The notes beneath the pieces are model-generated. The model saw nothing but the letters and a program-made list of their open reading frames with translations. It ran no database searches and was not told the origin of the DNA. Below, in pieces: positions 3,699 through 31,476 of a DNA stretch of 47,446 nt. The position numbers and the translations under genes are program-made. The stretch's first letter is position 1, and the number at the start of each line of letters is the position of its first letter. The DNA lies in NCBI GenBank assembly GCA_003151625.1, contig PLYC01000010.1, positions 68,283 to 115,728 of the forward strand, in the 5' to 3' direction. Source of the DNA: Candidatus Doudnabacteria bacterium. Its GTDB lineage: Bacteria > Patescibacteriota > Doudnabacteria > UBA920.

Positions 3699-4916
3699 TT
3701 ATTTTAAATAAATAATTTCTAAAAGTTGTTTTTTAAATTTTTCTTTGCTGAATTTTTCGGCTTGCGCGCGCAAATTATCGACGGAATATTTTTGAGGGTT
3801 CCAGGAGAGGAGAAGGGCTTTGATTTGTTCCTTGTAGCGGAGGCCACCGGCCTCCATACCATTATTGTGGCGGCCAGTGGCCGCCGCTACACCAAAAAAC
3901 TCTCCCGTCACTCCGGAGACAATAGTTTCCAGCGCTCCGCCTTTTCCGTAAGCCAGGGTGGCTGTACCGCAGGCCGCGGCTTCCAGGGGCATTAGGCCGA
4001 AATCTTCCAACTGAGGGTAAATTAGAGCTTTTGCACCCCTATACTCGTCGCGCAACCGCTCGTCGCTAATGCAACCCAAAAACTTAGTGTTTGGTTTGGC
4101 AATAGACTTTAAATACTCTTCCTGCCGTCCGGTACCCACAACGTGAAGCGGTAAACCAAGCTCATTGAAAACCTCCACTATAAGATCGTTCTGCTTATGG
4201 GCATGGAGGCGGCCGGCAAGGAGAAAGTAATTTCTATTTTCGGCGTCATCCTGAACCCCAAGTGCATCCGAGGGGTGAAGGATCTCATTCTTGGTTTGAG
4301 ATTCTTCACTCGGCTGCACTCGTTCAGAATGACGCCCTAAAAGAGTTGCATTCCAAAAACTAGTATCGACAAATGGGTAAACTATTTCGCTTTCTCGATT
4401 GTAATATTTTTTTATGCGACCTTGGACCTCTTTTGAATTGGCAATAAATTTTGTTACCCGCTGGGCACCGTTGTAATCCCATTTTTTCATGCTCTTTAAA
4501 AAAATTTTAGCCAGCGGCCGAATTAACCACGGAACTTCCTGTTTTACGTAATCAGGTTCGCTCCATAAAAATCTGGTTGGCGTGTGGCAATAACAAATAT
4601 GAACACAATTTTTTGGGACTCGAACATTCTTTGCCCAGCCGGAACTAGATGATATTACTACGTCAAAATCTTTTAAATCCAAATTATCAGTGCCCCAGGG
4701 AATTAGAGGCAAGAGATATTGTAATTTCTCGAGCGATAAATATAAAGTCTGGAGGCTCGACGTTCGAATATCCCAGGTTTTGTGCTTTTCCTTGAACATG
4801 GGATCATAAACCAAAGTAAACACCGGCGCATCCGGAAAAAGCTCGTGGAGGGCGTCCAAAACCCTCTCGGCGCCACCTAATTGTGTAAATGAATCGTGTA
4901 CAAGTGCAATCTTCAT
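3699..4916 (-). CDS. GT4 glycosyltransferase carrying an in-frame palindromic insert
   Basis: A 405-residue GT4 enzyme. MKIALVHDSFTQLGGAERVL is the classic acceptor-side start, so ATG 4916 is preferred over the in-frame ATG at 4979. HICYCHTPTRFLW (about 105-117) and FLLAGRLHAHKQND (about 232-245) are typical of WbaZ-like mannosyltransferases. The donor motif is EDFGLMPLEAAACGTATLAY (about 293-312). Between the two Rossmann domains, residues about 194-225 are unlike the family and are encoded by the palindromic element at 4242-4336. The reading frame stays open across it. Because it falls at the interdomain hinge, the enzyme may still fold and work. The gene is followed after 4 nt by the IMPase-like gene and is likely the head of this small operon. 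Confidence 0.85.
   Translation of the reverse strand: MKIALVHDSFTQLGGAERVLDALHELFPDAPVFTLVYDPMFKEKHKTWDIRTSSLQTLYLSLEKLQYLLPLIPWGTDNLDLKDFDVVISSSSGWAKNVRVPKNCVHICYCHTPTRFLWSEPDYVKQEVPWLIRPLAKIFLKSMKKWDYNGAQRVTKFIANSKEVQGRIKKYYNRESEIVYPFVDTSFWNATLLGRHSERVQPSEESQTKNEILHPSDALGVQDDAENRNYFLLAGRLHAHKQNDLIVEVFNELGLPLHVVGTGRQEEYLKSIAKPNTKFLGCISDERLRDEYRGAKALIYPQLEDFGLMPLEAAACGTATLAYGKGGALETIVSGVTGEFFGVAAATGRHNNGMEAGGLRYKEQIKALLLSWNPQKYSVDNLRAQAEKFSKEKFKKQLLEIIYLK
4242..4336. repeat. Palindromic repeat element inside a coding gene
   Basis: Outer arms 4242-4256 (GGCGTCATCCTGAAC) and 4322-4336 (GTTCAGAATGACGCC) pair at 14 of 15 positions. Inner arms 4275-4287 and 4297-4309 pair at 12 of 13. The core resembles the widespread intergenic palindromes with GTCATTCTGAG and GAAGAATCTC words known from many bacterial genomes. 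Here it lies wholly inside a glycosyltransferase gene and adds about 32 residues in frame. Confidence 0.85.
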
Positions 4917-4979
4917 TGAGTTTACGAAGTACCTTCCCGCCAAAATTAATTTTTTTAATTGCTCACTGATGGTAGCCAT

Positions 4980-18391: not shown

Positions 18392-18502
18392 AAAATAATT
18401 AAGTAAAATTAAGTAAAATTTTTAATTAAATAAAATTGGACTGCAACCGCATTTCAATTTTATTTAATTTTACTTAATTCTGGTCAATTTTATTTAATAA
18501 TT

Positions 18503-27091: not shown

Positions 27092-27508
27092 AAGGGTATA
27101 TTAACTTTTAATTATGCAACGTCCTCAGGATTGGGAAATGGCAGAAAGATTGATGTTTAGTTTGATGTGGGAAGAAACTGGACAAGAAGGTTTACGCCCA
27201 TTGTCTTTCGTGAGGGAGGTGCTTGTGACCCTTCCACGCAGAACAATTAAAATGAGGCCAACCAATGTGGGGAGACAATCTACAGCGTTAACCCTCGAAC
27301 GGCCGACGTGCTGCGTGACAAAGCCCCTTGGGATGTTAGAATAACCGGAAGCTACTTCCTTCTCGGTTTTCTCGACTGACCTTAAACGCGCGACCACGGC
27401 GTCATTCTGAGCGCGATGAGCGGCCTCGGCAAACGCACGAGACCCTTCATTGTACATCAGGTGACGCCTCTATTTTTTATAATAATTCTTAAAATACCTT
27501 GTGTAACA
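27092..27508. other. 417-nt spacer with two overlapping unsupported frames
   Basis: A plus-strand frame (27114-27344, 76 codons, start MQRPQDWEMAERLMFSLMWE) and a minus-strand frame (27125-27457, 110 codons, with AEAAHRAQNDAVVARLRSVE and a hydrophobic LPTLVGLILIVL) cover the same DNA. The base composition is higher in G+C than the neighbours. The plus frame is preceded by TATATT 11 nt before its ATG and followed by a GGAAG/CTTCC hairpin. Neither resembles a family I know. At most one is real; this may also be acquired DNA. Confidence 0.35.
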
Positions 27509-28543
27509 TTATTCATGGCCATAAATTATATTACAGTAATTAATTTTACGTTTCTTCCACATATTTGGCAACAATTTTATCAAATTCGGCAGGACTTTTA
27601 AAGTGCCTATCTCAAAAAATAAAACATAAAAAAACATAAAAAACTCGCGGATAAAAAACTGCGGATAAAAATACGGAGAATTTTTTATATACATAAAAAT
27701 GTGGTTTTGGTAGTTGAGCTGGCGGACGCGGGGGGAAAGTTTTTTGTGGTGGTTAATGAACTCAACAACATCGGCATAACCGTTTTCCGAAGACCCGGCT
27801 CCCCTGCCGTGGTAGCCAACCGCGGCCGGAACAAAAATGTTTTTCCAACCGGCATTAGTCATCCTCCAGCTTAAATCGACATCTTCCCAGTAGCTGTGGA
27901 AGTCTTCGTCAAAAAACTCGCTAGTAGTTAGTAGTTTGTAGCTAGCGTGGCCGCCATTGGCTTCGCCGGCAGGCGATGGCAGGCGGGTAGCTAGTAAGGC
28001 GGAGCGGCGGTACATGGCGCCGGCGGCGGAAACCGCTTGTAAGCTTATATCCCTATCATACTGCCCCTTGTCCACCTCATGCTGACCCCTGTCCCTCGCC
28101 CGACCGGATTTACTGATAGTCACGCCTGTAGTATCAAGCACACAATGGGCACCATTGTGCAGCACAATGGTGCCCATTGTGATATCCCATTGATACAGCT
28201 TCCCCGTCGCCGCGCCGACCTTGGGATCGTCAAAAGCTTTTAAAATATTTTCAATGTATTCCGGCTCCATCATCATATCCGGATTCACCAACTGAAAAAA
28301 ATCGCTTGTATATTTTTCAAACACCAAATTGTGGCCTTTGGCAAAACCAATGTTATACCCGGGATCAATAATCTCAACTCGCGGAAATTTTTCCATCAGT
28401 ATCTCCTTACCCCCATCTTCATTCCCCGCAATTACCGCAACTACATTAAAATTTTTGTACGTCTGGCTAAAAATCGCGGAAAACACCGGTTCAATGAACC
28501 GTCGATTATTATAGACTACTTGGACTATGGTGACCTTTGCCAT
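27509..28543 (-). CDS. GT2-family glycosyltransferase with in-frame palindromic inserts
   Basis: A 344-residue GT2 enzyme. VTIVQVVYNNRRFIEPVFSA opens the nucleotide-binding half, FFQLVNPDMMMEPEYIE (about 71-87) holds the DxD-type site, and FHSYWEDVDLSWRMTNAGWK (about 210-229) is the ED motif region. GRARDRGQHEVDKGQYDRDI (about 146-165) fits a subgroup common in this phylum. Two stretches depart from that pattern: residues about 121-134 are encoded by a 41-nt perfect palindrome (28141-28181), and about 180-206 by CTAGCTAC word DNA (27925-28005). The frame is open through both. A C-terminal hydrophobic segment (FFMFFYVLFFEI, about 307-318) suggests membrane contact. Confidence 0.87.
   Translation of the reverse strand: MAKVTIVQVVYNNRRFIEPVFSAIFSQTYKNFNVVAVIAGNEDGGKEILMEKFPRVEIIDPGYNIGFAKGHNLVFEKYTSDFFQLVNPDMMMEPEYIENILKAFDDPKVGAATGKLYQWDITMGTIVLHNGAHCVLDTTGVTISKSGRARDRGQHEVDKGQYDRDISLQAVSAAGAMYRRSALLATRLPSPAGEANGGHASYKLLTTSEFFDEDFHSYWEDVDLSWRMTNAGWKNIFVPAAVGYHGRGAGSSENGYADVVEFINHHKKLSPRVRQLNYQNHIFMYIKNSPYFYPQFFIREFFMFFYVLFFEIGTLKVLPNLIKLLPNMWKKRKINYCNIIYGHE
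28141..28181. repeat. 41-nt perfect hairpin inside a GT2 gene
   Basis: Arms 28141-28159 (CACAATGGGCACCATTGTG) and 28163-28181 are perfect reverse complements around CAG. Each arm is itself a hairpin, ACAATGG/CCATTGT around 3 nt. The same ACAATGGGCACCATTGT core occurs in the spacer at 41799-41815. Confidence 0.95.
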
Positions 28544-30217: not shown

Positions 30218-30300
30218 AAATAAATTAAATAAAATTGACCATAATTAAGTAAAATTAAATAAAATTGCCTACAGTAAATTTTACTTAATTTTATTTATTT
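30218..30300. repeat. TTAAGTAAAATT inverted repeat, second copy
   Basis: Left arm about 30244-30267 and right arm about 30278-30300 oppose each other around GCCTACAGT. Loop and arm order match 1724-1794 with a few changes, so both derive from one element. Confidence 0.75.
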
Positions 30301-31476
30301 TTAATTAATTTTAATTAATACGCCAAGCGTTTCCCTGGCACATTTTTCCCAACTAAAATCCTTGAGCCGTTCTTTACCCATAGCGCGCAAGTTATCGGCC
30401 AGCGATTTATCCGTTAATATTAATTTCATTGCATTTTTAATTTCCGTGATGTTCTTGGGGTCAAAATACAACGCCGCGTGGCCCGCTACTTCAGGCATAC
30501 TTGAAACATTGGACGTGGCCACCGGAACCCCGGCCTGAAAACTTTCCAAAATTTGCATTCCGAAGCCTTCATAAAAACTTGGCAAAACCAGCATATTGGC
30601 TTTTGTCAGAATAGCAAATCGGTCTTTATCCGACACATAGTTTAAATAAATAACGTCCTTATTTTCCGCAATCGTCTTTAAAATTGATTCAAATTTCCAT
30701 CCTGTTTTTCCTACAACCACCAGCTTATGCGGCAACTCCGGATTTTCTATTTTTAACTGTTTAAAAGCATTTATCAACCCTTCCAAATTTTTGCGCGGCT
30801 GTAATGTAGATAAGAATAATATATACTTATTAGGCAAATCTGTTCCGGAACTCTGACTTTCTGACCCGCCTTGACTCGCGTCCGCCTCGTCTTGGCCGCC
30901 TAGACTCGAATTAGTCGAGGCTGGCGCCGAGCGAGACGGGTCGGGCGACGTGGGCTTAGCCGGTTTTCCTATCTCATACCCATGATGCACAACTGAAACT
31001 CTATTGGCTTCGATCCTATAAAATTTTATTAAATCTTTTTTTGTACTCTCGGAAACCGCAATTATCCCTGCGGCATTCCTAACCGCGAATTTTGTTGACC
31101 ACTCCAAAAAATTGCGCATAAACCAGGTAAAGCTCCGGGGAAAATATCGCCAACCAATATCATGAATCGTGACTACGGATTTTTTTGGATGGATTAACGG
31201 CAAAGCCGAGGCTGGAATAAATAACACGTCCACCGGACTGAACAGCATTTCCAGACTTATTCTGATTTGCGTCCAAAAAATTGGAAAAGGAATTGCCTTA
31301 ACTTGAAAATTCGCCGGCAAACTTTTGAACCAATCTTCGGGCTTAGACCGAAGATATAAAATATATGAATTGATTTTATCCAACTCCGCCAAATGTAAAA
31401 TCAGCTCCTTGGCATAATGTTCCACTCCGGTCTTTTGAGGATTATTGGCTCGTTCGGCTTCTATACCTATTAACAT
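30301..31476 (-). CDS. GT4 glycosyltransferase with inserted hinge segment
   Basis: A 391-residue GT4 enzyme. MLIGIEAERANNPQKTGVEH starts the acceptor domain, VVTIHDIGWRYFPRSFTWFM (about 101-120) is typical, and YILFLSTLQPRKNLEGL (about 218-234) opens the donor domain. YEGFGMQILESFQAGVPVAT (about 303-322) is the E-x7-E donor motif. Residues about 172-208 (Pro-, Ser-, Asp-, Gly-rich) interrupt the hinge between domains and are encoded by a palindrome-rich, G+C-rich segment (30852-30960). The position matches that of the insert in the GT4 at 3699. Substrate unknown. It precedes the ligase gene across an inverted-repeat spacer. Confidence 0.87.
   Translation of the reverse strand: MLIGIEAERANNPQKTGVEHYAKELILHLAELDKINSYILYLRSKPEDWFKSLPANFQVKAIPFPIFWTQIRISLEMLFSPVDVLFIPASALPLIHPKKSVVTIHDIGWRYFPRSFTWFMRNFLEWSTKFAVRNAAGIIAVSESTKKDLIKFYRIEANRVSVVHHGYEIGKPAKPTSPDPSRSAPASTNSSLGGQDEADASQGGSESQSSGTDLPNKYILFLSTLQPRKNLEGLINAFKQLKIENPELPHKLVVVGKTGWKFESILKTIAENKDVIYLNYVSDKDRFAILTKANMLVLPSFYEGFGMQILESFQAGVPVATSNVSSMPEVAGHAALYFDPKNITEIKNAMKLILTDKSLADNLRAMGKERLKDFSWEKCARETLGVLIKIN
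30852..30960. repeat. Palindromic G+C-rich insert inside a GT4 gene
   Basis: GACCCG and CGGGTC near the ends pair, and CTCGA/TCGAG around ATTAG lies in the middle, with GCC/GGC outside it. Pairing is imperfect. Composition is far richer in G+C than the flanking gene. It resembles the TTGACTCGCGTCCGCC-type mosaic repeats of other genomes. Confidence 0.6.

Follow-up and report, generated by a model that had tools for sequence, protein, structure and literature searches.

How a long palindrome came to lie within the reading frame of a glycosyltransferase gene, and what it has become there, is the question raised by the window analysed here, a stretch of 47,446 nucleotides from Candidatus Doudnabacteria. 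The gene and the repeats within it are listed below.

3699-4979, minus strand: GT4 glycosyltransferase gene carrying the element; 426-codon open reading frame (ORF), assigned from Pfam, homologue starts and an AlphaFold2 model
4242-4336, unstranded: main palindromic repeat, 95 bp, in frame, two facing units with CGTC at the outer ends
4242-4286, plus strand: unit 1, GG-CGTC-ATCCT-GA-ACCCC...GGGGT-GA-AGGAT-CTC (from the single-unit fold and the unit pattern census)
4298-4336, minus strand: unit 2, in the opposite orientation, GG-CGTC-ATTCT...AGAAT-CTC
3834-3890, unstranded: second palindromic repeat in the same GT4 gene, in frame, encoding approximately VAAATGRHNNGMEAGGLRY near the C-terminus

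Structure of the palindrome

The two units of the element at 4242-4336 are separated by a spacer of 11 nt (4287-4297), both outer ends read GGCGTC and terminal inverted repeats are present. The outer arms, GGCGTCATCCTGAAC (4242-4256) and GTTCAGAATGACGCC (4322-4336), pair at 14 of 15 positions and the inner arms, GTGAAGGATCTCA and TGAGATTCTTCAC, at 12 of 13 positions by inspection. RNA folding of 4222-4356 gave -61.1 kcal/mol against a shuffled mean of -31.8 (z = -7.9), with none of 200 shuffles folding as well. Pairing and fold confirmed the two tiers that a sequence-only reading had described with these same pair counts, at coordinates that proved exact. Folded alone, unit 1 formed a 5-bp stem, a GA/GA internal loop, a further 5-bp stem and a 12-nt loop; the hairpin with an 8-9-bp stem and a 4-5-nt loop, obtained for a canonical-type unit modelled on the relative G017, was not formed by unit 1, and unit 2 folded alone gave no such hairpin. 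Both units end in CTC, a CCA tail being absent from either.

Dispersal of the element in the genome

The genome to which the window belongs (1.50 Mb, 34 contigs) contains about 20 further loci of the element, about 21 in all, and the best full-length matches to the 95-bp sequence were 88, 87, 81 and 79% identical. With a covariance model derived from 11 copies, about 20 separate loci were identified at E < 0.1; inside the window, at 27398-27468, this model gave a weak match apart from the element itself (E = 0.0025). A degenerate unit pattern gave 19 matches in this genome, compared with 0 for the reversed pattern. Most loci here are inverted pairs, and the layout common to the copies is that of two facing units with the conserved CGTC outside and a variable core. 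Units of the same kind were found in 31 of the 98 genomes searched, including this one, with G013 and G009 being the richest. Roughly two thirds of the loci in the own genome are intergenic; the copy search, with its hits in spacers as well as genes, agrees with the earlier description of a dispersed repeat of intergenic type. The number of copies, together with the fold z-score, ruled out a palindrome arisen by chance.

Copies in frame were identified in ORFs encoding a MurF-like ligase (L003; within Mur_ligase_C), PurL (L102), RsmI (L106; within TP_methylase), a Wzy-type Wzy_C protein (L004) and, as a single unit, LeuRS (L012). A special compatibility of the element with coding was unsupported, since the fraction of open frames (0.26; 31 of 120 frames) did not exceed that of random stretches of the own genome (0.30). 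In RecJ (L025, G000:C7 at ~3.4 kb) the frame stops 33 residues past an element copy, suggesting possible disruption of the gene by this copy. The LeuRS ORF (G000:C7 at ~72.4 kb) also contains a Ser_hydrolase-like domain (PF06821, residues 261-416), which directly follows the half repeat and precedes the editing domain.

Inspection by eye of the flanks of genomic copies revealed no target-site duplication, nor was a common flanking motif visible around the other genomic copies. The right flanks of L001 and L002, otherwise different, both have GAGTTGCA at an identical distance past the element, which may be due to chance. Matches to Y1_Tnp were found in the own genome (two) and in other genomes. 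None was present in G013, the genome with the most unit matches, leaving a RAYT as mobiliser of the CGTC-like element unsupported, and a search covering Y1_Tnp identified no mobilising enzyme.

The host enzyme and its translated insert

The GT4 gene likely starts at an internal ATG at 4916 (MKIALVHDSFTQ...), which matches the starts of its homologues. The two GT4 domains identified by Pfam, PF13439 (N-domain, residues 35-207) and PF00534 (C-domain, residues 246-362), flank the element, which is located in the linker joining the two Rossmann domains; read on the minus strand, it encodes GRHSERVQPSEESQTKNEILHPSDALGVQDDA. Counted from the Met at 4916, the insert occupies about residues 194-226. 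The stretch from 'FW' to 'YFLLAGR' comprises 44 amino acids compared with 11 in insert-free homologues, corresponding to a net gain of 33 residues, with the edges of the insert approximate at the level of single bases. ORF, Pfam and alignment are in good agreement with the about 32 residues at the Rossmann hinge that had been attributed to the repeat beforehand.

An AlphaFold2 model, based on an input alignment of 24 homologues, had a mean pLDDT of 88 and a pTM of 0.86, and its GT-B fold matched solved GT4 enzymes, for example, HepE, PglA and PimA. Values of pLDDT below 50 were confined to residues 195-202 and 206-226, representing the insert, and to residues 348-353 near the second insert, the rest being confident. 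Low pLDDT at the insert in an otherwise confident fold suggests that it is a disordered extension of the interdomain linker. As the model is a prediction, it is no proof that the enzyme works; we infer that the GT4 carrying the insert is produced and active, and that the insert is near neutral.

Recurrence of inserts at the hinge

In whole-genome searches most relatives aligned with the GT4 in two blocks, the first ending near query residue 210 and the second resuming near residue 248, and when 30 homologues were aligned, most had a joint of 11-12 residues, as compared with 44 in the GT4 of the window. Most homologues from the same order and phylum, distant ones included, are without the insert, and the sister species G002 has an empty site with a linker of 11 residues. 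The possibility raised by the sequence-only reading, that distant homologues share the same residues at this position, was not borne out, and an ancestral GT4 loop is ruled out by the homologues that are without the segment.

Within the family, 8 of the 19 homologues (seven besides that of the window's genome) carry an insert of 23-46 amino acids at the same junction. Inserts of type CATTCTGA were found in G000 and G007, of type CATTCCGG in G003 and G004 (21 matches in each of these genomes), of type CATTGCGAG in G009 (15 matches in that genome) and of type CATTCCCGC in G017, with unit matches numbering 21 in G017, 2 in G020 and 0 in G010 or G000. Two other types, in G018 and G010, were counted as inserts, apart from their status as repeats. 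Several of the inserts in relatives are palindromes distinct from the one here and recur as repeats in the respective genome. Those of G003 and G009 appear to hold another repeat family nested inside, as part of each recurs alone elsewhere.

Inserts of at least 10 residues numbered 12 in the 19 family homologues, which offer about 358 internal junctions; eight were at the hinge and two at one other junction. With random placement, no junction reached four or more in 100 000 simulations, a result that shows concentration and not targeting, since the simulation ignores protein structure. On a GT tree built without the insert columns, presence and absence of the hinge insert required nine changes, at least six of them forced by well-supported branches, counts which cannot separate gain from loss. 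The hinge has empty, single, dimeric and nested repeat states among the relatives, and its history is likely a mix of gains, losses and replacement.

Comparison with known repeats

Repetitive extragenic palindromes (REPs) tagged by CGTC or GTAG, with intragenic copies, have been described in several phyla (Di Nocera et al., 2013; PMC3733652). CGTC-tagged REPs form head-to-head dimers with no dedicated transposase evident and include RPE-4 and RPE-6 of Rickettsia conorii as well as dRS3 of Neisseria; they are mostly intergenic, although some intragenic copies are in frame and encode 20-30 amino acids (PMC3733652). The element at 4242-4336 resembles them in its CGTC outer ends, AT as first stem bases, head-to-head pairs and mainly intergenic habit, with a minority of copies in frame in genes and no dedicated transposase evident. 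It differs in its 5-bp outer stem, long variable core and CTC tail, as CGTC-tagged REPs themselves have an 8-9-bp stem, a 4-5-nt loop and a CCA tail (PMC3733652). Given that tag, dimer form and habit match but stem, loop and tail differ, it is designated here as CGTC-REP-like and not as a member of families 1-4. Doudnabacteria are not among the host lineages named in the sections of that study consulted here. The GTAG-tagged REPs comprise 24 published families with a GTAG end, a stem of 5-13 bp and a loop of 2-20 nt (PMC3733652). The second repeat of the GT4 gene, at 3834-3890, agrees with that description, having GTAG ends, a 7-bp stem, a 3-nt loop, a head-to-head dimer and intragenic copies.

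In recB of Xanthomonas, different REPs occupy about the same site in two species (PMC3733652), whereas here eight genomes have inserts and the site is the hinge of a glycosyltransferase. Rickettsia palindromic elements such as RPE-1 extend known proteins by tens of residues, being inserted in frame in their genes (Ogata et al., 2000, 2002; cited in PMC3733652 and PMC2759123). Going by these accounts, they are a functional parallel to the GT4 insert. Their host lineage is unrelated, and the GT4 case is unlike them in that the same protein joint was hit by several repeat types across related species. Enterobacterial RU/ERIC and QMITE of Coxiella are MITE-like intragenic repeats that contribute coding sequence; the GT4 insert, likewise a small mobile repeat adding coding sequence, is unrelated to both in sequence, and the overlaps of QMITE with functional genes fall at 3' ends (PMC2759123, PMC5896051). 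The Rickettsia elements that had been put forward as the precedent are a fair one but not the sole one, with CGTC- and GTAG-tagged REPs and the enterobacterial and Coxiella repeats providing others. Full-text searches of the open-licence literature found no papers on such repeats in Patescibacteria and gave no contradiction to the earlier statement that no case is described in the phylum. Insertions of this sort are a known kind of event; their occurrence in this phylum is new, and so is the uncommon feature that a single hinge has received them repeatedly.

Origin and retention of the insert

We consider it very probable that a dispersed, non-coding palindrome of REP/MITE type inserted in frame at the surface interdomain linker of a functional GT4 and is translated as about 33 probably disordered residues, repeat insertions surviving where they are tolerated. 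Survival of mobile repeats where the protein tolerates them is the likeliest mechanism. Copies, spread by transposition-like copying through a putative enzyme, would land widely in the genome; most insertions within genes would be purged, survival being limited to in-frame ones located in linkers or loops. Structural tolerance is the simplest account of the repeated acceptance at the GT4 joint, which would be so tolerant that different repeats were accepted again and again in related species. A further-reaching proposal, which we regard as rather doubtful, is that, throughout a bacterial family, selfish palindromes of different kinds have repeatedly been taken up at the hinge of this GT4 family, with retention going beyond neutrality, through a DNA target preference or a benefit of hinge lengthening, and that the hinge records ongoing repeat mobility in Patescibacteria.

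The same pattern could have been left by one old insertion in the ancestor of the family, followed by precise losses and by overwriting with other repeats through recombination or nested insertion. Palindromes are readily deleted, one repeat type is common to G003 and G004 and another to G000 and G007, and the composite look of the G003 and G009 inserts, with a nested second repeat family, indicates that turnover at the hinge does occur. A single gain, however, demands many precise losses plus swaps to different repeats; sister pairs differ in presence and type of insert, and G010, a close relative of G017, has a different sequence at the site and none of the type abundant in G017. We therefore think a single ancestral insertion unlikely. 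The proposal that GT4 linkers are ordinary variable loops, in which a palindrome arose by chance, draws on the varying length of these linkers, 28 amino acids in some distant homologues (L046, L053); the fold z-score of -7.9 and the approximately 20 homologous copies found elsewhere in the genome, chiefly in spacers, make it virtually impossible, the copy number refuting it.

Two further proposals concern the hinge itself, and to both we assign a low probability. Were a longer hinge useful, for example, in domain closure or partner binding, inserts might have been kept by exaptation, and 8 of 19 family homologues with 23-46 amino acids at one junction, as well as a repeat at the hinge of the second GT4 of the window, are consistent with this. 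The inserted residues are nevertheless unconserved and predicted to be disordered, an insert is missing from over half of the homologues, that of the sister species among them, and many unrelated proteins of the same genome also hold repeats, which fits tolerance. Alternatively, the hinge DNA might be a preferred target of the mobilising machinery, as the repeated insertions within a few codons, beside the conserved FWKP codons, could suggest; yet it is different families that use the site, at junctions differing by several nucleotides, and other genomic copies have no visible common flanking motif. Insertion and survival of repeats at a structurally tolerant linker is the reading we prefer.

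These data extend in-frame palindromic repeats to Candidatus Doudnabacteria (Patescibacteria), in whose small genomes one would not expect selfish repeats to spread into essential genes. With its empty, single, dimeric and nested states, one protein joint provides a comparative series among relatives, allowing a direct test of whether such repeats are useful, directed by sequence or carried as neutral passengers. An odd linker in a protein of such a genome may be a translated repeat and not a domain, and enzymes can repeatedly absorb stray DNA where structure tolerates it.

Other repeats in the window and genome

Two further genes of the window contain repeats of other families.

30829-30981, minus strand: a different dispersed repeat, located in the hinge segment of the second GT4 gene (30301-31476, minus strand); 7 genome matches including itself
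28141-28181, unstranded: palindrome of a third family, in frame in a GT2 gene (27509-28543, minus strand), encoding MGTIVLHNGAHC; perfect 20-bp arms

The repeat at 3834-3890 consists of two GTAG-tagged hairpins arranged head-to-head, both units having GTAG-C, a 7-bp stem and a 3-nt loop, and is represented by about 8 loci in the genome. At this site, G004 alone of the compared family homologues carries an insert, which differs from the one here. Relatives of the repeat are in frame in ORFs that, from reading of their translations, appear to be TypA-like and RibF-like. Another copy of the repeat at 30829-30981 was read in frame near the N-terminus of an RNase J-like ORF (L123). The MGTIVLHNGAHC peptide recurs near the start of the Wzy_C ORF in L004, and in L115 a near-identical copy of the palindrome at 28141-28181 is located at a distance of about 850 bp from one of the two Y1_Tnp matches of the own genome, this palindrome family being different from the GTAG-tagged one. 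An additional VGAELARPLTDDGRLKPAPTT segment in the GTPase domain of LepA/EF4 (L103, G000:C16 at ~30 kb) looks like a translated repeat. At 1716-1795, 18392-18500 and 30222-30319 the window has AT-rich inverted repeats (AAAATTAAGTAAAATTGACC type), which are intergenic at least in part.
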